A stretch of 64,000 bases of DNA from Candidatus Nitrosopumilus sp. (GCA_028351415.1 JAOMJV010000003.1:1-64000), one strand, 5' to 3'; counted from the first letter of the stretch, positions 6,936 to 64,000 are shown. The notes: generated by a model not told the origin, from the sequence alone. Numbers and translations are program-made.

Positions 6936-8246
6936 TTGAAATTCATAGTTGATCAGCAAGTTGAAGACATTGAAATGCCTGAGAATCTTAAATTAAACAC
7001 ATTTTTACAAGAATTTCATTCTAGCTGTGACCAACCTGAATGCAGTTTTGGTTTCTACGGATTTGCTTTTGGTCAATCTCCATTCCCCGTACCTCAATTA
7101 ATTCAAAATGCATTAATTAAAAATGCGGATAAGGGTGCATATGCTGCAGTACCTGGTATTCCAGAATTACGAAGTGCCATATCTAAATACAACAAACATT
7201 ATTTTGAACTGGATGTAGCTCCTGAAAGAATCTATGTCGGTCCCGGAACTAAAGAATTAATATTTAATCTTTTAGAAATATTGCACGGCACAGTAATTTT
7301 GCCAACTCCTGCATGGCTGGGATACTTGCCACAAATTAGATTCTTGCAAAAAAATTACCACATGCTACCTACAAGAGCAAATAAAAAAATATCTCCGACT
7401 GATTTACAAAAATTATCACTAAGACTTCAAGACAGGCAAAAAATTCTGATTCTAAATAACCCCAATAACCCTACTGGATTATTATATGATAGATTGGAAT
7501 TAGAGGAAATCGCAGACATCTGTCGAGAACAAAATATTGTAGTTATTTCTGATGAGATTTATGCACAAACCACTTTTAATTTTTCAAAATTCGTTAGCAT
7601 GGGAAAAATTTACCCTGAGGGAACTTTTGTAACAAATGGATTATCCAAATCACATGCTGCTGGTGGATATCGATTAGGCTATGTTGTTTTTCCACAACAT
7701 GCATCTGACCTTAAATCTCAATTTAAAAAAATACTTGCAACTGAATACACCGCAGTATCCACTCCAATTCAACATGCTGCTGTTGAGGGGTTTGAAATTA
7801 GTAAAGACATGGATGAGTATTTTGAAATTACCCGTAACATACATCGCATAATGGGCGAGTATGTCTATAATTCATTATTAGAAATTGAGGGGGTTAAAGT
7901 AACAAAACCCGAGGCTACATTTTATCTGCTGGCAGATTTTAATGCATTTGCAACAGATTTACAAAAAGTAAAAATCAACACATCTCAAAAATTATCTGAG
8001 TCATTAATGGTTCATCCCTATCACACTGCAATAGTTGGAGGTGATAGTTTAGTTTTAGAACGAACTGATTTTAGTGCAAGAATTGCATATGTGGATTATG
8101 ACGGTGCAAAAGTTTATCAGAGTTATAAAAAACAAATACCTAAAACTCATTCTGAAAGAACTGAATTTGTAAAAAACAATGCACCAAAAATGGTTCAAGG
8201 TATTAAAATGATTGCAAAATTTTTTGAAGATATTAGAAATAAATAA
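6936..8246 (+). CDS. class I/II PLP-dependent aminotransferase
   Basis: ILNNPNNPTG, ISDEIYAQT, TNGLSKSHAAGGYRLGY (PLP lysine) motifs. Confidence 0.85.
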   Translation: MKFIVDQQVEDIEMPENLKLNTFLQEFHSSCDQPECSFGFYGFAFGQSPFPVPQLIQNALIKNADKGAYAAVPGIPELRSAISKYNKHYFELDVAPERIYVGPGTKELIFNLLEILHGTVILPTPAWLGYLPQIRFLQKNYHMLPTRANKKISPTDLQKLSLRLQDRQKILILNNPNNPTGLLYDRLELEEIADICREQNIVVISDEIYAQTTFNFSKFVSMGKIYPEGTFVTNGLSKSHAAGGYRLGYVVFPQHASDLKSQFKKILATEYTAVSTPIQHAAVEGFEISKDMDEYFEITRNIHRIMGEYVYNSLLEIEGVKVTKPEATFYLLADFNAFATDLQKVKINTSQKLSESLMVHPYHTAIVGGDSLVLERTDFSARIAYVDYDGAKVYQSYKKQIPKTHSERTEFVKNNAPKMVQGIKMIAKFFEDIRNK

Positions 8247-47955: not shown

Positions 47956-48360
47956 TCATCTTGAATGAAACTTTGCCAGTATCTTCCGTCTGCATTTCTC
48001 CGGATTCTTTTCAATGTCATGCTCCCACAGTCTGAGGACGGACCATCCGTCCCGTCTTAGCTTTCGGTTGTACCTCCTGTCGCGCCTCATGTTGTTCTCA
48101 ATCTTGTCGCGCCAGAACTTTTTTGCAAGCCTTTTTTTTTGGCCGTACCTGTACCCGTGCCAAAAGTCGCCGTCGCAGAATATCGCAATCCTCTTTCTTT
48201 TGTGAGCAAAGTCAGGATTGCCGTACATCTTTGGATACATTTCAAACCTGTACCCCGTGTCTTCAAGCATCTGCTTCATGATAAGATCAATCTTTGTGTT
48301 GCTTCCGCGTATCCTTGACATTACCCATGATCTTTTTTCAGGAGTGAAGATGTCCGTCAT
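47956..48360 (-). CDS. vsr: very short patch repair (Vsr-type) endonuclease
   Basis: DIFTPEKRSWVMSRIRGSNTKIDLIMKQMLEDTGYRFEMYPKMYGNPDFAHKRKRIAIFCDGDFWHGYRYG...RRYNRKLRRDGWSVLRLWEHDI. Confidence 0.92.
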   Translation of the reverse strand: MTDIFTPEKRSWVMSRIRGSNTKIDLIMKQMLEDTGYRFEMYPKMYGNPDFAHKRKRIAIFCDGDFWHGYRYGQKKRLAKKFWRDKIENNMRRDRRYNRKLRRDGWSVLRLWEHDIEKNPEKCRRKILAKFHSR

Positions 48361-48497
48361 GCAAAAAACCTACGCATATGTTTTATCAAACAGTACGTGC
48401 CAAAATTAATGTCTTTTGAACTCTAAAAATAGTGTCCAAATGGAAGTGTATGTGTTTGATGACAACAATTTTAACATAACATGTTTTAGAAATTTAC

Positions 48498-48707
48498 ATG
48501 GTTTCTGTATTAAACACTGAAATTTTAAGAGTACTGGGAACAAAAGACGAAGTAAAGTTAAATGAATTGTATGAAATAGTTGGCAAACATCCTGACTTTA
48601 CGTGGGATCTTTCAGTAAGAAAACACAGAGTCAGAAGCGCACTTGACAATCTAAAAAGGCAAAACAAGGTTGAGCGTTCTGCAGACAGAACCTACAAGTT
48701 AGTTTAA
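48498..48707 (+). CDS. small wHTH-like protein
   Basis: LRVLGTKDEVKLNELYEIVGKHPDFTWDLSVRKHRVRSALDNLKRQNKVERSADRTYKLV. Confidence 0.6.
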   Translation: MVSVLNTEILRVLGTKDEVKLNELYEIVGKHPDFTWDLSVRKHRVRSALDNLKRQNKVERSADRTYKLV

Positions 48708-48726
48708 TTTTTGTTGGATGAATAAT

Positions 48727-49827
48727 TTACTTTATTGTTTTATCATTGAATCTAAATTCAATATCATTGTACTTACATTCTATAATCAGATCTTGATACT
48801 TTCTTTTGACTTCTTCATCAGTTGCAACATCAGTTCCTGAAAGATAACAAACTAATTTTTTTGAATATTTTATTCCATCAATCGTAATATCAGATTTTTT
48901 AAAGATCATTAGTTTGAATAACGCGTCTAACACATCATTCTCATCTGGAAATTTTCCTTTTGTAGTGTGTTTGCCTTCTAGAATTTCAATTATCCTATTC
49001 TTTTTGTCTATGGAAACACTGTCTGCAGTTAAGAAAATTGTTTTTGAATTTCCCATGTCGACGTTGAACTTTCCTTTTTTACCTGGAACATTTTCTAGTT
49101 TTTGATCACTGGAAAATTCTCTGTGTTGAGCTTTTTCTGATTCCTTGTCTGAATCTAGTAAAAATTTTGGTATGTCTGTATGCCAAACTCCCAGTTTCTT
49201 TTCCAGGGATTTGAAACTTCTTACAAAGACCCCCAGTTCTTTCCCCAACCGCCTGTTATTTTCTATTGCAGTTTTTAACAAAGAAGGGATTCTAACTAGC
49301 TGCTTTTGATTCCAATCTTCTACTTTTGGACAATTTGATACTATCTCCTTCACTTGCTCTAGCAATTCATCATTTTCAAATTCAAAACTTGTGAAAACAG
49401 GCTCTCCTTGAGTGCTGGCTTTGCCTTTGCTGGCATTTGCAGCAGCTTTTCCCTTGGGTCTCATCTTTGCCTTTGTATACACGCCAACAATCACATAGAC
49501 TCCCAACCCTGACATCCATGAAATTGTACCTGGCTGAAGCTTGTTGTCATCACCATGTTTTCCATAACTTGCCTGAACTGGAATGATTGTGATCTTTTTT
49601 CCGTGATGACCTAGCGTACTGTAGACTCTTGGAAACGGATAAGTTTTGGTTCTTTTCGGTGTCGTCCACACACTGATGGCAACAACATCGTCTCCGATTT
49701 TAGATTTGAACGATGTGTTGTTTTCTGTCATTGCGTTGTTAAATTCCAATTCTTTTAATCCTGGATCTTTTGAAAAATTGTAAGACTCTCTTCCAAGTGT
49801 CACTTCAATAATTTCCGGTTCTACCAT
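48727..49827 (-). CDS. candidate restriction endonuclease partner of adjacent Dam-type methylase
   Basis: Follows the methylase gene with a 22-nt gap; RIIEILEGKHTTKG is a possible nuclease core. Assignment is by context. Confidence 0.4.
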   Translation of the reverse strand: MVEPEIIEVTLGRESYNFSKDPGLKELEFNNAMTENNTSFKSKIGDDVVAISVWTTPKRTKTYPFPRVYSTLGHHGKKITIIPVQASYGKHGDDNKLQPGTISWMSGLGVYVIVGVYTKAKMRPKGKAAANASKGKASTQGEPVFTSFEFENDELLEQVKEIVSNCPKVEDWNQKQLVRIPSLLKTAIENNRRLGKELGVFVRSFKSLEKKLGVWHTDIPKFLLDSDKESEKAQHREFSSDQKLENVPGKKGKFNVDMGNSKTIFLTADSVSIDKKNRIIEILEGKHTTKGKFPDENDVLDALFKLMIFKKSDITIDGIKYSKKLVCYLSGTDVATDEEVKRKYQDLIIECKYNDIEFRFNDKTIK

Positions 49828-49849
49828 AAGTAAAATCTGTTAGTCTTGG

Positions 49850-50713
49850 TTATATGTAAAATATTTTTTTAAGTTCACCATTTTTATCAAGATTAATTTT
49901 GATATCCTTGCTGAAAATTAATATCTCACGTGATTTTTTGTTATCGGACATTTTTTTATCAGTGGCCATTGAATACGACCACTTGGGTTCAAGAATAGTG
50001 TGACCCTTGTAGAGTTCCCTGATCGAATCTATGTTGTTGTAAGACATAATCCATTTTTTCTTTTTATCATTTTTTAGAATTTCAGCCAATCCTTTGTGAT
50101 CAAAATTTTTGTGAATCTTGCCATCATTCCCGTACAGTTGGCTTTCAATCAGATACGGAGGATCAAGGTACATCAAATCTTTTTTATGACTTTTAATTGA
50201 TTTTTTAAAATCAATGCATTTGATGGACAACAAGTTTTCCACTTTGAAGTTTCTAATTCTGTCAACTGATGACTCTGTAAATCTTGGATTTGTGTCAATT
50301 GTTCCGTTCGTCTTTTTCTCCCTTGCCATTCCAACTGCAAGTGGGTTTCCAGAATGTGACGTTCTGTTCAGAACATAAAATTCCGTAGCATTTGTCAATC
50401 TGTTTTTTGCCTTTGGGTGTTTTTTCTGCATTTTTTTGTAATCTTCCTCGGTAAATTTTCCGGGCTTGTGCTTCTCGACTTTCTTTGCAAGTCTTTGGGG
50501 GTTTTCAAGCATCTCCTGCCAAAAATCAACCAGCGGCTGAAACTTGTCGTATCCCGTAACCTTAATTCCCTGCTGGGCACAAAATATCTCCAAAGAACCC
50601 CCTCCAAAGAACGGTGAGCACAGAGTCTTTGGCTCTAGCGGCTCTATGTATTTCCAAATTGTCTTTACTGCTCTTGATTTACCCCCCGGATAGCGCAGTG
50701 GGGATTTTATCAT
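49850..50713 (-). CDS. Dam-family N6-adenine DNA methyltransferase
   Basis: KSPLRYPGGKSRAVKTIWKYI, SPFFGGGSLEIFCA, DLMYLDPPYL. Confidence 0.92.
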   Translation of the reverse strand: MIKSPLRYPGGKSRAVKTIWKYIEPLEPKTLCSPFFGGGSLEIFCAQQGIKVTGYDKFQPLVDFWQEMLENPQRLAKKVEKHKPGKFTEEDYKKMQKKHPKAKNRLTNATEFYVLNRTSHSGNPLAVGMAREKKTNGTIDTNPRFTESSVDRIRNFKVENLLSIKCIDFKKSIKSHKKDLMYLDPPYLIESQLYGNDGKIHKNFDHKGLAEILKNDKKKKWIMSYNNIDSIRELYKGHTILEPKWSYSMATDKKMSDNKKSREILIFSKDIKINLDKNGELKKIFYI

Positions 50714-55689: not shown

Positions 55690-58600
55690 TTATTCCTCCG
55701 TCACCTTTGCATCACAGATACTCTGGTACGAACAGAACATACATGCATTGTAGCTAGGTGTTGCCTCAAAGTTCTCTAGCAAAATCTCCTTTGTCATGCC
55801 AATGATTGTATCCACTGTCTCCTTAACTGACTCCTCGGTCACTGGATACTCTACCATCTTGTCTTTTTCCACATAAAACAGGGATGCTTTTACGGGCAGT
55901 TCCCCCTTTAGTTTCTCCACTGCCATTGCATAGATGTTCAGCTGCGGGTCTATCTTGGCCTTGTTTTTTGACTTTACGGTTTTGCCAGACTTGAAATCAA
56001 CCACCTCGTACTTTCCATCAGGATTCTTCTCCAACCTGTCTATCCTTCCAGTAAACGTAATCTCACCAATCTTCACATCAAATGGTACCTCCAAACCTAC
56101 AAGCTCGTTCTTTGTTTCTTTTTCCCATTTGACATACGTCTTGACCATTCCTTCAGCTCTCTCAGTTGCGGTGTCTTCCTCTGATTGACTTTGATAGGAG
56201 TTGAAAATCCACTTGTCCTTAATTTTTTCTAGCGCTTTTTCTTCAACTACTTCCTCTCCCTTCATTTTCTCATTTGCAACTTCTTCTGTGATTGCATGAA
56301 CTACGTTCCCAAGATCCAATGCGACACTGGATGGACTTGGAACGCGTAAAATTTTTTGAAACTTGAATTTTAGCGGGCAGTCTGAATATGCCGTAATACT
56401 ACTTGGAGACAGTGTAAAACTTTCTTTGTTGATCAACGGAATTTTATCTCCGGTTAGTTCCTCAGTTAAATTGACATCATCAATGTTTATCTTCAACACT
56501 TCTTGCGCGTCAAAATTATCAAAGCTCCCATGTTTTTCAAAATGTTTTACTCTTGCCAGTTCTACAATTCTGTGTATCGCAGTTTTTAGATTCAACTGAT
56601 TAATTGCACTTGCTGCTTCTTTTTGCAAGTCTGCCTTTACTCTGTCAATGATTTCCTCTGCCTGCATGTTCATGGAATCTGATTCCTTGAAATCAATCAA
56701 TTTGATCAGTGGATTTTTCTCATAATCTAATTCCGTCAAGAATTGGGATGGATCCTTTTCGTTTACATTTCCAGGATATTTCTTTGGATACAGCAAAAAT
56801 AGCATGTTCATGGCACGGGTCATCCCTACGTAAAAGAGCCTGCGCTCTTCTTCCAGGTGCAACTGGCTGGTCTCTATGGTTCTGTCTACTCCTCTCATTA
56901 GTTTTTGAGGCACGTGAAATGTTCTATCCTTGTATGACACTGGAAACCTTTTCTCAGCTAAATCCGTAATGAACACTACGGGAAACTCCTTTCCCTTGCT
57001 TTTGTGCAATGTCTGAACGTTTACCGCATCCTCAAAAAGTACGTCCTTAATCTCAATTTCAAATTCACCTAAAATAGAAACGTGGATTAAAAATTCTGAT
57101 AAGGGTTCATCAGAATAGATGTCCTGAAATTCTTGTGTTATCTCGTAAAATTTATTTAATAAAATAATATTTTTCTTGTCTTGTATTTTTTCTGAATATA
57201 TTGATTTTTTATAGATGTCCGAATACGACATCATAATTTTATACACAAGTTGTGAAATGGTGGCAGTACTGGAAAAAGTAATTATGTTGTCAATTTGTTC
57301 AATCAGTTCCTTGATTTCTTCTTTTTGAGTAATATCAAACTCGTCAAACTTGCGCAGTGTATCTAAAACATAGTCGTCTTGGCCGTCATAGACATGTCGA
57401 GCTTTCTTGTGTGCGGCATGTGTGATGACTGTAATATTTTTTTCTGCAACTCCCTGACTCTTTAGCAGTCTGAATACTTCTGCGCCAGATGATAGTGGGG
57501 AACTGGTAATTTTTAAAAATGAAATCAAATCCAGTATGCCCGGACTTGAAAATATGTTTGACTCTCCGGTAAACGTTGCAGGTATGCCAAATGATTTTAG
57601 TGTCTTTGCAAATTTCTGTCCTTCTGTCTTTCTTCTTGACAAGACTGTAATGTCGCTGTAGGCAATTGGCTTGGTAGTCCCGTCCCGTCTTTTTAGTGGC
57701 TTTCCAATAATTTTTTGAATTGTGTTGACTGTAAATTCCACTTCCCCGTTATCTGAGGCTGTTCGGATAACTTTGATTAGTTCCCCCTCCTCATGTGATG
57801 AAAACAGTGACTTTTTCACTCTGTTGGATATTGGATTTAGAAGCTGGTTTGCCAATTTGACAATGTTTTGATTGCTGCGATAGTTTTGGCTTAGTTCTAC
57901 CGTGTCACAGGTGTACGATGACTTGAAGTCATCAAATATTCCCGAATACGCTCCCTGAAATTTCATTATGCATTGATCATCGTCCCCTACTGCCGTGATG
58001 TTTCCGTGCTTTGCCAACAGTTTGAGAATTTCCATCTGTGAAAAATTGTTATCCTGAAACTCGTCAACCAAAATGTGTTGGAATTTTTTCTGATAATTTG
58101 ATAGAATTACAGGATCTTTTTGCAGCAACTCTACAGTTTTTGTAATCATGTCATCAAAGTCTATCAGTTGTTTTTCTTTTAGATGCGCTTGATACGCGTA
58201 ATACACCTTGTTGAACTCGTTTAATTTTTTAAAGAATTTGGTCTGCTCTTTTACCTCGTCTTCTTCGGGGTCTCTTGAATCCAATATTTTTAAATTTTCA
58301 TCAACATGCTGCTGAACCCTGTCGGGTGAGATCATCTCTTCCTTGAAATTACTTATTGCCTCTAAAATTGCAGAGTAAATTCTAACTTGGTTATTACCTA
58401 GCTCAAGATAGTTTGAATCAAAATTAAACTTGTCTGTGTTCCTGATACACCATACTGTCTGTGATGATTTTTTTAAAATTTTTGTATCCCTTCCCAGACC
58501 TGACTCCATAAAGTTTTCCTCCAGAATTTCTTTTGAAAAAGCATGAAACGTGCTAATTTTTGCGTCAATGATTCCGTGCTTTTCCAGTCTCTGCTTCATC

Positions 58601-58785
58601 TCCCCTGCAGCTTTGTCTGTGAATGTTAAGCACAAAATTGATGACTGCTCCACATCCGACTTTACTAGTTGGAGAATTTTTTCAATGATGACTCTGGTCT
58701 TTCCGCTTCCGGGACCTGCAATTACAAGCAACGGGCCTTTGGAGTGACTTGCAGCCTTTGCTTGCTGTTCGTTTAATTCAAACAT
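55690..58785 (-). CDS. UvrD/Rep-like SF1 helicase fused to C-terminal RecB-like nuclease with Fe-S-type cysteines
   Basis: GPLLVIAGPGSGKTRVI, ILVDEFQDNN, VQTLHKSKGKEFPVVF; C-terminal SDCPLKFKF, EVVDFKSGK, PQLNIYAM, CMFCSYQSIC (AddB/Cas4-like Cys arrangement). Confidence 0.9.
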   Translation of the reverse strand: MFELNEQQAKAASHSKGPLLVIAGPGSGKTRVIIEKILQLVKSDVEQSSILCLTFTDKAAGEMKQRLEKHGIIDAKISTFHAFSKEILEENFMESGLGRDTKILKKSSQTVWCIRNTDKFNFDSNYLELGNNQVRIYSAILEAISNFKEEMISPDRVQQHVDENLKILDSRDPEEDEVKEQTKFFKKLNEFNKVYYAYQAHLKEKQLIDFDDMITKTVELLQKDPVILSNYQKKFQHILVDEFQDNNFSQMEILKLLAKHGNITAVGDDDQCIMKFQGAYSGIFDDFKSSYTCDTVELSQNYRSNQNIVKLANQLLNPISNRVKKSLFSSHEEGELIKVIRTASDNGEVEFTVNTIQKIIGKPLKRRDGTTKPIAYSDITVLSRRKTEGQKFAKTLKSFGIPATFTGESNIFSSPGILDLISFLKITSSPLSSGAEVFRLLKSQGVAEKNITVITHAAHKKARHVYDGQDDYVLDTLRKFDEFDITQKEEIKELIEQIDNIITFSSTATISQLVYKIMMSYSDIYKKSIYSEKIQDKKNIILLNKFYEITQEFQDIYSDEPLSEFLIHVSILGEFEIEIKDVLFEDAVNVQTLHKSKGKEFPVVFITDLAEKRFPVSYKDRTFHVPQKLMRGVDRTIETSQLHLEEERRLFYVGMTRAMNMLFLLYPKKYPGNVNEKDPSQFLTELDYEKNPLIKLIDFKESDSMNMQAEEIIDRVKADLQKEAASAINQLNLKTAIHRIVELARVKHFEKHGSFDNFDAQEVLKINIDDVNLTEELTGDKIPLINKESFTLSPSSITAYSDCPLKFKFQKILRVPSPSSVALDLGNVVHAITEEVANEKMKGEEVVEEKALEKIKDKWIFNSYQSQSEEDTATERAEGMVKTYVKWEKETKNELVGLEVPFDVKIGEITFTGRIDRLEKNPDGKYEVVDFKSGKTVKSKNKAKIDPQLNIYAMAVEKLKGELPVKASLFYVEKDKMVEYPVTEESVKETVDTIIGMTKEILLENFEATPSYNACMFCSYQSICDAKVTEE

Positions 58786-59612
58786 TATGGAATCACCACG
58801 TACAAGGGAACGTTCATTGCAGACTTGTCTTTGATTGCTTCTCTAAAATCAGTTGTGTTGAAATTCACGCCGACAATTGAATTTAACGCATCAACACATG
58901 TTTCACTGTATGGTGATGTCATAAATTGCCTGAATCCTCTATACGCCAAAGGCTGACTGTCCATGAATTCATTGCAATATGGGTTCAAGTCCAGATCGAA
59001 TCCTATCCTTGGTTCTCCTGGTAATCTGTTTGATATTTTCAAATTTTTTCTTGCCACGTTGGCATTGCAAATTGACTCATCCCATAGAATTCCCTGTATT
59101 TGTCTCTCTGCCCTGAACTGATGATACTCATTGCTGTTCATTGTGTTGCACTGAGTCAACGAATAATCAATTGCATAGTGACCCAACTCATGACGCAACA
59201 ATACTTTTTTTGCAATGTTGTTCATATCTCTATGAATTTCCTGTGACGTCTTTTGACCGTTTGGCATGTTCATGAAAATACTTCCATTTGGATCATTAAT
59301 GATTTTATTTTCAAAATATGATGCAAGCCAATTGATTCCACTTTCAAGGAAGTAAATCCCCCAGTCTGCCGGAGACACGTGCGGTGATACGTAATATGCC
59401 AACACGTCAATGTCTGCAATCTCGTTTCCTTCCATCACGCTGTCAAATTGAATTTGTCTTTGGTTGCCATGATCTGTTTCCGGTTGATATCGGTTGAACT
59501 GTTGATGTGACATTCTTTGTATGTGTCCGTCAAAAAAATCGATGTCTCCCTCAAATGGCCGATTTAAATCCATTAATCTTATCTGCAATGGATTTAGTCT
59601 CTCGTGCATCAT
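58785..59612 (-). CDS. predicted zinc metalloprotease (HExxH)
   Basis: KKVLLRHELGHYAIDYSLTQ (HELGH) with downstream ERQIQGILWDESICNA candidate third ligand; overlaps both operon neighbours. Confidence 0.65.
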   Translation of the reverse strand: MMHERLNPLQIRLMDLNRPFEGDIDFFDGHIQRMSHQQFNRYQPETDHGNQRQIQFDSVMEGNEIADIDVLAYYVSPHVSPADWGIYFLESGINWLASYFENKIINDPNGSIFMNMPNGQKTSQEIHRDMNNIAKKVLLRHELGHYAIDYSLTQCNTMNSNEYHQFRAERQIQGILWDESICNANVARKNLKISNRLPGEPRIGFDLDLNPYCNEFMDSQPLAYRGFRQFMTSPYSETCVDALNSIVGVNFNTTDFREAIKDKSAMNVPLYVVIP

Positions 59613-60358
59613 CTTCTTCTTGCCTCCAAAACAGATAGCGGCTTTTCAATTCCATTTTTGTTATTGGAACAAGTCGTTTGGTAGTTGCACAGTTTGCAAA
59701 ACGAGTTCACCTGACCGTCTGGCATCTCTTTGGACTTTATTGCATTTTCAATTGCTGTTACCTTGCTGATAATCCAGTTTGACATGTCCTCTTTTTGTAT
59801 TTCAAATGATACGACGTCATTCATGTCAAGATAGACTATCGTCAGTTTCTCCACTGGAATTATGTTCTCAAATATTGTTCCATAGATTTGAATCTGCTTG
59901 ATGTGTGAGTCAAACGGCAATAGTCCTTCGCTTGTACTTTTGGAAACATTATCCATTGTTTTAAACTCGATAATGTTCTTCTCTTCTGGATCGTAGCAAT
60001 CCAGCCTTCCAAAGACCGGAATGTCTTCCCCGTTTATGCTTACTGTGTATTTTCCTTCAAGCTCGTTCCAGCTGTATGCCTGAGTTATCTGGTGAAGAAA
60101 GTTACCCCTGGTTGTCCTCCATATGTTGTCCTCCACCTGTGTCAGGTCTATTTTTTCAAAGGATGTCCTGGTTTTTTGAAAAAATGCCTTTCTTGGACAG
60201 CCTAGAAGGGCACTGACAGAGTACCCCATTGTATTTCTGGCAGGATAAATCCTGTTCTCCCTTCCCAGAAACTCTATGATTTTGTCTGGTGTTTTGATTT
60301 GTTGTGTTCTTCTCATGACAACCTTAGTCGGCAAATCTATTGATGCATGCAAATGCAA
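59609..60358 (-). CDS. Cas4/RecB-like nuclease; likely start ATG at 60316
   Basis: ALLGCPRKAFFQKTR, VFGRLDCYDPEEKNIIEFKTM, HIKQIQIYGTIF, FCKLCNYQTTC. MRRTQQ start at 60316 avoids overlap with the operator. Confidence 0.75.
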   Translation of the reverse strand: MHLHASIDLPTKVVMRRTQQIKTPDKIIEFLGRENRIYPARNTMGYSVSALLGCPRKAFFQKTRTSFEKIDLTQVEDNIWRTTRGNFLHQITQAYSWNELEGKYTVSINGEDIPVFGRLDCYDPEEKNIIEFKTMDNVSKSTSEGLLPFDSHIKQIQIYGTIFENIIPVEKLTIVYLDMNDVVSFEIQKEDMSNWIISKVTAIENAIKSKEMPDGQVNSFCKLCNYQTTCSNNKNGIEKPLSVLEARRR

Positions 60359-60383
60359 AGTGCAGAAAAAATCTGCAACTTTA
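60348..60383. repeat. 36-bp inverted-repeat element, left copy; contains palindrome TGCAGA-AAAAA-TCTGCA (60361-60377), putative operator
   Basis: tgcaaatgcaaagtgcagaaaaaatctgcaacttta is the exact reverse complement of 63682..63717. Confidence 0.92.
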
Positions 60384-60426
60384 GATTTGCGTGATCCATA
60401 AATAGAAAGTTATTTTGAATTACTAC

Positions 60427-61341
60427 ATGGCTAGCCCAAAAATTACTGTCTTGATTGCTTTAATTGGCAAGCATCCACAACATGTTGAACATTTCATCCG
60501 GGAAAGGGGGTCACAATTAAAGAGAATTCACTTGCTGCATACATGTGACAATGATCAACCTCCCAGCAGAGATGGAAGTGATGGAACATCTGAATGCAAA
60601 TGTTGTGGGATGGGAGGGCTAATTGATTATGGAGAACTATCAAACAAGTTTGTAAAAAAACTACAACGAAAATACAAACCAGAGAAAGGAAAACCCAAAT
60701 CAGGCATAACGATAATTCCTGAACCTTATGATGAAGCTCATGACCTTTGGGAGGTGCAGGATAGAATTTTAGAAATAGTTGGAAATGAACGAGAGGATGA
60801 TAGTGTACAGCTAAATAATATTGCATTGGAAATTAGCGGGGGAACCAACATTGCTGCAGCTGCACAAATATTTGCAATTTACAATTCAGAAATTGTTCCA
60901 TTCTATGTGGATAACAAACCAGATGAGAATGGAAATTGGGTTAGAGACATCATTGTACCTGAGAACTTTGGAAAAAAGTTAACCGCAAAAGCAAAAAATG
61001 TTTTGAAAGTCATTGCAGAATCTGAATTTACAGTAAAACCTAACGGACATTCAGAAACACCTGACGGTGAAGATCCACATCCGGTGAAAGGACAAATTAC
61101 TCGCATAGATCTTGAAAGAAAACTTGATGTGCGAAGAGCTCCGGATGGAATACTGAAGAAACTTGAACAATTCAAACTAATTGAAACTATTTCGCCCTAC
61201 GATGTTTACACGAATACATCTGATGAAGAGGATGACCCTACATGGGAGTTGGTTCCATATTCCTACAATGCCTACAAGATAACAAAAGCTGGAATAATAG
61301 CTGCAAGACGTTTTAAAATATCTGAACAAGTGCAGAAGTGA
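60427..61341 (+). CDS. CARF-like sensor with C-terminal wHTH (Csa3/HFX_2341-like regulator)
   Basis: ITVLIALIGKHPQHVEHFI, ITIIPEPYDEAHDLWEVQDRILEIVG, ALEISGGTNIAAAAQIFAIY (CARF-like nucleotide-binding fold), RIDLERKLDVRRAPDGILKKLEQFKLIET...YKITKAGIIAARRF wHTH. Track start is TTG 60415; ATG at 60427 preferred. Confidence 0.65.
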   Translation: MASPKITVLIALIGKHPQHVEHFIRERGSQLKRIHLLHTCDNDQPPSRDGSDGTSECKCCGMGGLIDYGELSNKFVKKLQRKYKPEKGKPKSGITIIPEPYDEAHDLWEVQDRILEIVGNEREDDSVQLNNIALEISGGTNIAAAAQIFAIYNSEIVPFYVDNKPDENGNWVRDIIVPENFGKKLTAKAKNVLKVIAESEFTVKPNGHSETPDGEDPHPVKGQITRIDLERKLDVRRAPDGILKKLEQFKLIETISPYDVYTNTSDEEDDPTWELVPYSYNAYKITKAGIIAARRFKISEQVQK

Positions 61342-61357
61342 TCTGCACTTTGCATTT
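61331..61357 (+). promoter_or_regulatory. third copy of palindromic element TGCAGA-AGTGA-TCTGCA + CTTTGCATTT
   Basis: Same arms and downstream CTTTGCATTT as the 63.7 kb copy, different 5-nt spacer; overlaps the 3' end of the CARF-like gene. Confidence 0.9.
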
Positions 61358-61391
61358 AAAATCTAATTTGTTTTGATTGCGTGTTAACTGT

Positions 61392-62354
61392 ATGTTAATT
61401 TTTAAAAATTATTTACCTTCTGCAAACTGTTTTAAAATTTATTATAAATGCAATGAGGAATTAGATATCATGGGTTTTGAAGATCATTACAATCCTGAAA
61501 ATGAATCTGACATTATTGATAAACAAACTAAGTTTTTTATCCATTTGAAAAATCATAACATTAAATCATCACCTAATAAGGCTGAATTTATAATATTATT
61601 TGGTTCACTGTTAGAATCAAAAATTAGAAATAAAATTATCAAAGAAATAAACAGTCATCCAATTAGTTATTTGGATGAATTACCAACATTAATCGTTCGT
61701 AGTAAACCCTATGACAGAATTGAAAAAAATAGTTACAATCCATTTGAGCAACTGTCAAGTTTGATTTCACATAATGAAAGAGTGGAAGAGGAAGTGATTG
61801 AGTCGCAATGGTCACATTTGACTGAATCTATAAAGAAATTACCTCCAATAAGTCTTGGTGAATTTGTTTCAAAATGTTATAGTTACAATTCTCCTGGTCC
61901 CATTTTTAAAATGTTGAGTGACTTTGCATTATTTGAAAATTGGGAAAAAAATAACCCAAAAAAAAGAAATTTTGATTTGCATGATAAACAATTTACTATG
62001 TACCTTTTACAAAGAAATAATGTTGTACATGAACTACTTAATACAGAAATAAGTAATACTGAATATATTAAACAAAATTTAGAAAATATTTTAAAAAGTA
62101 TTGTTAGAATGGTGGAAACAGCATTAGAAGTTAGAAGAATTTCTATTGATAGTTTTAAATCCGCTGAAAAAACTAATGTTGATTTTCAATTATCTTGGCT
62201 AAAAAAAATTAAAGGTGATTGTAACAAAAATAAAATGAAAAATTGGAACAAACATGGGTATTCTAAATTGTTTACTACAGAAACAACTGTCAATAAATTA
62301 GATTCAGAATCAGAATATCTGATCAAAAAATTGGGAGGGGATTTAAATGTATGA
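61392..62354 (+). CDS. HEPN-like domain protein, candidate ribonuclease
   Basis: FTMYLLQRNNVVHELLN contains RNxxxH in an alpha-helical C-terminal domain (YIKQNLENILKSIVRMVETALEVRRI). Track start is TTG 61377; ATG 61392 preferred. Confidence 0.55.
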   Translation: MLIFKNYLPSANCFKIYYKCNEELDIMGFEDHYNPENESDIIDKQTKFFIHLKNHNIKSSPNKAEFIILFGSLLESKIRNKIIKEINSHPISYLDELPTLIVRSKPYDRIEKNSYNPFEQLSSLISHNERVEEEVIESQWSHLTESIKKLPPISLGEFVSKCYSYNSPGPIFKMLSDFALFENWEKNNPKKRNFDLHDKQFTMYLLQRNNVVHELLNTEISNTEYIKQNLENILKSIVRMVETALEVRRISIDSFKSAEKTNVDFQLSWLKKIKGDCNKNKMKNWNKHGYSKLFTTETTVNKLDSESEYLIKKLGGDLNV

Positions 62355-63684
62355 TGAAACAAATTTGAAGACATTTATTTATTTAAAAAAAAGTAAAAGA
62401 ATTTCCATCAGAAAACTAGAACAAAAAATTAAAGAGTTACATTTTGACGATGTTCAGGATGAGACTTTTAAAGAAATCCTTGAACAAATTCATTCGTTGT
62501 GCGGGGATGTTTATTTTTCAAAAAATAGATTTGGTGCGGCAATAAAACAGTATGAGTTATGCCTGAAATATAATTCTGGAAACATTCACGCAATAGTCGG
62601 ACTTGCAAACTCATTTCAATCTTTAGGCCTGGATAGCTTGTCTGGGGAAAAATTTACTAAATCTGAGAGTTTTTACGTCTGGAAAAGGACATTTCTTGGC
62701 AATACTTTAGATAATGAACGGGATTTTGTCCCCGAAAATCCCGATGATGCGGGTAATGATGAATTTCAATGCATTCCCAAAAGCCTTCTTTTCAATATTG
62801 CAATACTTGAAAAATCTAAACGCATATTTGAATATCTTGGTAGAGTAGAGCCATCTGCAGATTTTTCAGAATCGTATATTTTTATTGATGATGATTTGTC
62901 CATTGAACAAAATATTGGAGACGATGTTGACAATATGGTTTCTAAATTAGTAAATAATTTTCCACAACTCGAAAAGATTAAAAAATATAATAAAACTCAA
63001 TTCAAAATAGATTCAAAACCATACAAAATTAACTCAAAAAATATTTCACGTACAACAACCCTGTACAGCTGCATTCCAAACGAGACATTGAAATCTAAAA
63101 AAATTAGCTCGTTATACTTTTCATATCTCTTATCTGGTTTTACTGAAAATTCAATTTTAGATAAAATTAGAGACGAATTAAAAATAATTATTAAATCAGA
63201 AAATTATTACATGCGAGAAGATTTCAAAAAAATAATCTTCAAACATTGGTTGGAATGTGTAGGAGATAAAAAATCCCTTCTGTCTATGAATATATCCGAT
63301 GAGACACTAAGCTTAAAACAAATTATTGACGGCACAATAGCTACGGGTCAGATAATCAAAGCTCTCAATCAACAACGGGATAGATTCAATCCTGAAACAA
63401 TTTGTCATAATATTACTAGCAAAAATATTGCAAAGATTTTGACTGAATCAGTAGAAGATTATGTTAAACTATGTGATTCAAATAAAAAAATAAAGGATAG
63501 CACTAATTTTCATTTAGATTCCGGGCCTGGATCTTTATTAGAAATGTTGCAAGATAAATTGCAACAAATGAGTGTGGCTGAAAAACCTCATAAGACCAGC
63601 AAAAACAAGCCTAAAAACACGAGAAAAGATCCTATAACTTACGCCAAATTATATGCTAAAATTAAAAAACTTAGAACTGATTAA
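62347..63684 (+). CDS. TPR-like protein, partner of HEPN-like gene
   Basis: DVYFSKNRFGAAIKQYELCLKYNSGNIHAIVGLANSFQSLG TPR-like; 8-nt overlap with HEPN-like gene. Confidence 0.6.
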   Translation: MYDETNLKTFIYLKKSKRISIRKLEQKIKELHFDDVQDETFKEILEQIHSLCGDVYFSKNRFGAAIKQYELCLKYNSGNIHAIVGLANSFQSLGLDSLSGEKFTKSESFYVWKRTFLGNTLDNERDFVPENPDDAGNDEFQCIPKSLLFNIAILEKSKRIFEYLGRVEPSADFSESYIFIDDDLSIEQNIGDDVDNMVSKLVNNFPQLEKIKKYNKTQFKIDSKPYKINSKNISRTTTLYSCIPNETLKSKKISSLYFSYLLSGFTENSILDKIRDELKIIIKSENYYMREDFKKIIFKHWLECVGDKKSLLSMNISDETLSLKQIIDGTIATGQIIKALNQQRDRFNPETICHNITSKNIAKILTESVEDYVKLCDSNKKIKDSTNFHLDSGPGSLLEMLQDKLQQMSVAEKPHKTSKNKPKNTRKDPITYAKLYAKIKKLRTD

Positions 63685-63717
63685 AGTTGCAGATTTTTTC
63701 TGCACTTTGCATTTGCA
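63682..63717. repeat. 36-bp inverted-repeat element, right copy; palindrome TGCAGA-TTTTT-TCTGCA (63688-63704), putative operator
   Basis: Exact reverse complement of 60348..60383; starts in the stop codon of the TPR-like gene. Confidence 0.92.
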
Positions 63718-63739
63718 CCCACCAATAGTCTTGCTGCCT

Positions 63740-64000
63740 ATGGTTAACATGAACAACAAAAAAAGATTAACCCAAGGGGATTTTGAAACTCTGATGGGGT
63801 TGTTTGGAACAATCCTTGAAAGCTGCGACAGATCAACTGCAAAGCAGATACGTGAGGTACTAGTGGACATAGAACATACGCTTTTTGATTACAATGAGGA
63901 GCATGAAATAAACCAATGCGAATGCCCCACATGTGAAGCTGACAGAAAAAAAGATAGAAAAGAGGGCAAACTTGTCACAAGAGAATTAACTCCAGAGGAC
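63740..64000 (+). CDS. hypothetical protein, 3'-truncated by window edge
   Basis: Not in ORF track: MVNMNNKKRLTQGDFETLMGLFGTILESCDRSTAKQIREVLVDIEHTLFDYNEEHEINQCECPTCEADRKKDRKEGKLVTRELTPED..., open to window end. Confidence 0.65.
   Translation, partial: MVNMNNKKRLTQGDFETLMGLFGTILESCDRSTAKQIREVLVDIEHTLFDYNEEHEINQCECPTCEADRKKDRKEGKLVTRELTPED

Follow-up and report, generated by a model that had tools for sequence, protein, structure and literature searches.

A palindrome, TGCAGA-N5-TCTGCA, stands ahead of several genes in the first 64,000 nucleotides (nt) of a contig from Candidatus Nitrosopumilus sp. (GCA_028351415.1, JAOMJV010000003.1:1-64000; this whole stretch is referred to as the window). 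One copy lies beside a gene for a protein with a CARF domain and a predicted winged helix-turn-helix (wHTH). The question raised by this locus is whether that protein binds the palindrome and which genes it would then control. Sequence comparison gives a fairly confident answer: the palindrome is probably the operator of the neighbouring CARF-wHTH protein, which would switch on a defence-type regulon and, in eight relatives, repress its own gene. The features on which this reading depends are as follows.

60361..60377: predicted operator 1 (TGCAGA-N5-TCTGCA), between the divergent Cas4-like and CARF genes (sequence scan and comparison with a relative, L030, described below)
60427..61341, plus strand: CARF-wHTH regulator, 304 aa, predicted operator binder (PADLOC CARF3, E-value: 7e-11)
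61331..61347: predicted operator 2, overlapping the end of the CARF gene (sequence scan)
63688..63704: predicted operator 3 (sequence scan)

The palindrome in the window and its genome

The window comes from contig C23 (73.8 kb) of a 1.07-Mb assembly that is 78% complete. A scan of the 64-kb window found exactly three palindromes of this sequence (chance expectation 0.00), confirming the positions and invariant arms reported in the first-pass annotation as well as its statement that the window holds no other copy. A search of the whole assembly, which that annotation had proposed, found five exact copies (C23:60361, 61331, 63688, 65649 and 71194). These are not scattered: all five fall in a single cluster of approximately 11 kb (C23 60361-71210) beside the CARF gene, with copies 4 (65649) and 5 (71194) shortly beyond the window edge. 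The reversed control pattern had no matches genome-wide. The annotation had also described a shared sequence following the palindrome. This holds for the box CTTTGCATTT, which adjoins all five copies on one side, but only in part for the longer block CTTTGCATTTnCAnnnAnCAATAGnnTTGC, which is common to four copies and missing at copy 61331.

Promoter geometry

The spacing between each dyad and the gene that follows was determined with start codons selected by conservation. The relevant intervals in the window are as follows.

60317..60360, minus strand: spacer of the Cas4-like operon, 44 nt, with CTTTGCATTT at 60351-60360 and CAATAG near the TATA position; TATA-less
60397..60405, plus strand: TATA-like box of the CARF gene, CATAAATAG, with ATAAAT 23 nt before ATG 60427
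61348..61391, plus strand: spacer 2, 44 nt, with CTTTGCATTT at 61348-61357
63705..63748, plus strand: spacer 3, 44 nt, with CTTTGCATTT at 63705-63714

Copies 1 to 3 are each 44 nt from a start (60316 on the minus strand, 61392 and 63749). Copy 4 has starts on both sides, at 45 nt (65711) and, on the other strand, at 43 nt (ATG 65605, a TFB-like gene), as does copy 5, at 44 nt (71255) and, on the other strand, 44 nt (GTG 71149). The distance of 35-44 nt given earlier stands for the 60316 and 61392 starts; the third start was moved from 63740 to 63749 because the first ATG is not conserved at the other copies and the second fits the common spacing. At operator 1, the CTTTGCATTT box directly adjoins the dyad and probably holds a third half-site, 3 bp beyond it. 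The CARF gene, which starts at 60427, has 49 nt between this operator and its ATG and an ordinary TATA-like box, CATAAATAG.

Among the genes of the compared loci, a TATA peak lies approximately 25 nt before start codons, which suggests that the messages are probably leaderless and that the dyad would be located at about -61 to -45. When scored with a hand-made hexamer list, a TATA-like hexamer was present at the expected place in 0 of 31 target promoters versus 30 of 168 other genes (p = 0.006). At many targets a third half-site is visible 3 bp after the dyad (TAA-TACAAA, TAA-TACGAA or CTT-TGCATT), and this may explain the invariant CTTTGCATTT.

Conservation in related genomes

The exact operator has no match in IMG/VR or in GTDB species contigs because the arms differ between lineages, and a search of 100 relatives with TCTGCACTTTGCATTTG, one mismatch allowed, gave only two single matches. 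One close relative of the CARF gene was found in the GTDB contigs, in a Candidatus Nitrosopelagicus metagenome-assembled genome (L030; 72-75% identity over the aligned part). L030 keeps the divergent Cas4-like/CARF arrangement. Its operator, GGTAGAAAAAATCTACA, has one arm position changed symmetrically (C/G to T/A) and one outer base changed on one side. The CTTTGCATTT box is conserved at 10 of 10 positions, the Cas4-like start again follows the operator by 44 nt, and the region before the CARF gene (60378-60426) is 92% identical.

In total, 401 genomes of the order were searched, using a CARF profile and the Cas4-like protein as queries. Where a genome has a close Cas4-like relative, a CARF gene is in most cases found close by. 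At these loci, TACAAA-N5-TTTGTA stands at the promoters of both the CARF and the Cas4-like genes; it has the same 6-N5-6 geometry and differs by two transitions per arm. Among ten relatives, the arms are TACAAA in eight genomes, TACGAA in one (G002) and TGTAGA-like in one, the nearest relative L030. The exact word TACAAA-N5-TTTGTA occurs in 0-5 copies per relative's whole genome, mostly clustered at the CARF locus (G102 4/5, G241 2/2, G321 2/3, G006 2/3, G029 4/5, G058 1/1, G146 1/1 and G269 2/4). G002 lacks this word and has TACGAA-N5-TTCGTA-type sites at 3 of 3 places: one shared by the CARF and Cas4-like genes (one arm base off), one at HsdM and one at a 147-aa gene. The sites of the relatives are located 44-45 nt before Cas4-like, HsdM, AAA ATPase, zinc-ribbon-like and small-protein genes. 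A site is also present 3-4 nt before the CARF ATG in eight relatives (G321, G269, G102, G241, G146, G058, G029 and G002).

The arms thus vary between genomes and agree within each: TGCAGA in the window genome, TGTAGA-like in L030, TACGAA in G002 and TACAAA elsewhere. The promoter of an orthologous zinc-ribbon gene (MKQRVSKLIPKGKG..., 85% identical) carries TACAAA in G006, 44 nt from the start, and TGCAGA in the window genome, 45 nt from the start, so at this promoter the arms have changed and the gene and site position have been kept. Conservation in relatives that keep the genes had been named in the first-pass annotation as a check, and there the operator is kept, with coordinated arm changes.

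These comparisons bear on two other explanations. The first is that the palindrome belongs to a mobile promoter cassette copied by recombination, with no dedicated regulator. The 62-nt block around the copies is 77-92% alike between them and some targets share their first codons, as such copying would produce, but the relatives share the dyad and its spacing and not the downstream sequence, copy 61331 shares only the dyad and box, and the arms co-vary by genome. A cassette is very unlikely. The second is that the palindrome acts as RNA, either as a terminator or as a 5'-leader hairpin. Copies 1, 4 and 5 lie between divergent genes, the 43-45-nt start spacing holds in both directions at copies 4 and 5, the dyad of the relatives is found 3-4 nt before the CARF ATG, and the loop sequence is free. 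An RNA role is scarcely credible, even though base pairing between the arms is conceivable, copies 2 and 3 come after stop codons (one of which copy 2 overlaps) and L030 keeps the symmetry.

In another CARF subfamily (approximately 254 aa), a different palindrome, AGTATCCATACT or AGTATGGATACT, is located directly before the start, with a second copy in G006 (sites at L024:3495-3541 and 7377-7423, and in L091 upstream of 2717). This is possibly a second operator class.

The predicted operator-binding protein

The association between palindrome and spacing was assessed against every perfect 6-N5-6 palindrome in 244 kb of CARF loci (n = 185). The 17 TACAAA and five TGCAGA sites have 20 ATG-initiated open reading frames (ORFs) at 43-45 nt, while the other 163 sites have four. 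With a background of 0.012 per side, p is approximately 1e-18 for TACAAA and 5e-10 for TGCAGA, a test that is partly circular for the Cas4-like and CARF sites, from which the TACAAA word was taken. The TACAAA sites at the HsdM, AAA, 145-aa and zinc-ribbon genes were found after the word was set.

When ORF families were compared across ten loci, CARF was the sole family present in all (10/10), followed by Cas4-like (8/10) and TFB (2/10); the loci were chosen by CARF or Cas4-like homology, so the CARF count owes something to ascertainment. Ascertainment does not account for all of it, since the Cas4-like search also retrieved seven of the nine loci from relatives. The comparison points to a dyad-symmetric operator at the predicted target promoters of the CARF-wHTH regulator and supports the CARF-controlled regulon first suggested for this locus, with the operator conserved alongside CARF loci. 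The CARF-wHTH protein is very probably the operator binder.

The same counts bear on the possibility that the cluster's TFB proteins read a non-canonical promoter in which the palindrome is a special B-recognition element (BRE). Two TFB-family genes are present in the cluster, one of them divergent from operator 4. Against this, TFB genes are found in 2 of 10 operator loci as opposed to 10 of 10 for CARF, a perfect inverted repeat is not expected as a requirement for TFB binding, and the palindrome is upstream of the expected BRE position. This explanation is highly improbable. The hairpin terminator, TFB-specific promoter and bare promoter cassette were all rejected on the evidence given for each.

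The product of 60427-61341 has a CARF domain (PADLOC CARF3, E-value: 7.2e-11). All 12 aligned family members match the HFX_2341_N (best E-value: 3.9e-13) and CARF3 models, and the best PDB profile matches are CARF proteins such as Card1. Alone, the window protein scores 13.8 bits against HFX_2341_N (PF19810), below the Pfam cut-off of 30; its relatives match this model far better. No match to the protein was found in the plasmids, phages or viral contigs searched.

Proposed model of regulation

The proposed model is as follows. A CARF-wHTH dimer would bind two half-sites whose centres are 11 bp apart (about one helical turn), at -61 to -45 and directly upstream of a TATA-less promoter core. 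Contact with basal factors would then turn on defence-type genes. Here the regulon would comprise the Cas4-like/metalloprotease-like/UvrD-Cas4 operon, the operon of target gene 2 and a TPR-like gene, and the further targets in the cluster (small zinc-ribbon-type and TPR genes, a DnaJ cluster and two TFB genes); in relatives it would include Cas4-like genes, HsdM and an AAA ATPase. Eight relatives have a site 3-4 nt ahead of the CARF start, and binding there is predicted to repress the CARF gene because a protein at this position would block transcription.

Activation of the targets is most likely because their promoters have no TATA box and the site is directly upstream. Archaeal activators typically act directly upstream of weak BRE/TATA cores (PMC7408454). 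The alternative in which the same CARF regulator is a ligand-released repressor of its targets at the same operator is unlikely. The site 3-4 nt before the CARF start in the relatives is a repressor position, and some archaeal regulators both activate and repress (PMC7408454). Target sites at -61 to -45, however, would leave the core promoter and start free, none of the 31 targets has a TATA-like box, and the fixed 43-45-nt spacing fits contact with the basal machinery rather than blocking. A dual regulator, acting as target activator and, in most relatives, as autorepressor, is favoured.

Several points weigh against this dual-regulator model. The CARF genes of the window genome and L030 have no auto-operator at 3-4 nt, the shared site being 48-49 nt upstream, and autoregulation must therefore differ there. 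The leaderless reading is drawn from the TATA peak of the compared loci, and the hexamer list and choice of loci limit the two counts as described above. The winged helix is backed by weak HTH_20, MarR and DUF6293_C matches in relatives and by a conserved ITxxG pattern. An AlphaFold model of the CARF protein, built on a two-row alignment, had a predicted local distance difference test (pLDDT) score of 45 and was set aside.

Signal and shared N-terminal peptide

Cyclic oligoadenylate had been considered as a ligand. A search with two models detected no Cas10 in any of ten genomes (six are 97-99% complete), and the few partial matches were short fragments below cut-off; this absence is weaker evidence for the window genome, whose assembly is incomplete. 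Because no Cas10 was found, cyclic oligoadenylate from a type III system is an unsupported guess.

Many target proteins of unrelated kinds begin with a common peptide, MKQxxSxQMGDGH. Similar peptides (MKQQISKQMGDGH or MxxxxSNLMGDD) are found in zinc-ribbon-like, Cas4-like, AAA ATPase and 50-145-aa proteins (for example C23 65711 and 71149; L025:2316; L024:13941; L084:9601 and 13764; L028:16284; L082:10003; L090:16259). In the scanned loci, the operator is located 44-45 nt upstream of all 15 ORFs that carry the peptide. The shared N-terminus may serve as a tag on the protein or reflect a signal in the nucleotide sequence.

A CRISPR-independent CARF pathway in ammonia-oxidising archaea can be suggested tentatively. 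A signal not made by Cas10 would act through the CARF-wHTH activator on the whole defence island, with specificity shifted between lineages, and the MKQxxSxQMGDGH peptide would mark the island proteins for a common partner.

Comparison with known systems

CARF-wHTH regulators are a known kind, represented by Csa3 and MM_0565. Csa3 is a CARF-wHTH regulator of crenarchaeal CRISPR-Cas that is reported to bind a pseudopalindrome at promoters including that of a cas4 gene (PMC8844856). The protein described here resembles Csa3 in having a CARF domain and a (weakly supported) C-terminal winged helix. It differs in its predicted targets (solo Cas4-like, type I restriction and other genes, with no Cas10 found in the ten genomes), in its fixed 43-45-nt spacing and lineage-specific arms, and in its match to Pfam Csa3_N, which is weak and confined to 3 of 12 members. 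MM_0565 of Methanosarcina mazei, likewise an archaeal CARF protein, binds its own promoter and also influences genes that do not belong to the cas operon (PMC7465815). Unlike the sharply defined operator found here, no distinct binding motif was found for MM_0565. A further likeness is to the HFX_2341/DUF6293 CARF-wHTH family (PADLOC CARF3), whose models all 12 members match; no operator description for this family was found in the literature searched.

BrxR/CapW-type WYL regulators mostly repress. They are likewise ligand-sensor proteins with a wHTH that control clustered defence genes, as described for bacterial defence islands (PMC9122601, PMC9122589, PMC9122588). Compared with the protein described here, they have a different sensor domain and belong to another domain of life. 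The open-access papers searched gave no account of this operator, of its spacing rule or of a CARF-Cas4-HsdM regulon in the order.

CARF regulators are usually treated as readers of type III CRISPR signals. Through the sharply defined operator, the fixed promoter geometry and the natural operator variants, a CARF regulator is here linked to solo-Cas4, restriction-modification and other defence-type genes, in lineages that yielded no Cas10. The question of what CRISPR-free CARF proteins sense thus becomes testable, with the operator as a reporter and the arm variants as specificity controls. For ammonia-oxidising archaea, an inferred regulon such as this one is also rare.

Genes of the putative regulon

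The predicted target genes in the window are as follows.

59609..60316, minus strand: Cas4-like PD-(D/E)XK nuclease, first gene of target operon 1 (Pfam Cas_Cas4, E-value: 3e-7; PADLOC Cas4, E-value: 5e-15)
58785..59612, minus strand: putative metalloprotease-like gene, target operon 1 (the translation contains HELGH; no family matched)
55690..58785, minus strand: UvrD-type helicase with C-terminal Cas4-like nuclease, target operon 1 (PADLOC GajB, E-value: 2e-86)
61392..62354, plus strand: target gene 2, 320 aa, no family match (alternative start 61471)
62347..63684, plus strand: TPR-like protein, second gene of target operon 2 (weak TPR match)
63749..64000, running on to contig position 64165, plus strand: target gene 3, 138 aa (start refined)

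The first gene is named Cas4-like because it reaches the Pfam Cas_Cas4 cut-off (31.1 bits, cut-off 22.7) and not that of NCBIfam cas4 (44.4, cut-off 65). The UvrD-type protein matches NCBIfam cas4 at residues 892-1025 (E-value: 1e-18). The product of 61392 had been called HEPN-like in the first-pass annotation, a label that was not confirmed: the protein matches no model of Pfam, PADLOC or NCBIfam. Its start at 61392 is uncertain, and the alternative at 61471 carries its own TATA-like sequence: TTTATTATAAATG (window 61437-61471), approximately 26 nt before ATG 61471, is a possible second, ordinary leaderless promoter of target gene 2.

Adjoining the regulon, window positions 47956-50713 encode a Vsr-like nuclease, a type II restriction enzyme and a DNA methyltransferase, without an operator copy. 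The two TFB-family genes within the regulon are located at C23 64646-65605 (divergent from operator 4) and 72577-73479 (downstream of operator 5). The conserved gene block with a DnaJ-domain protein (C23 68392-71149; L024:11061-13941) shows 64-93% identity when the window genome is compared with G006, though their regulators differ.

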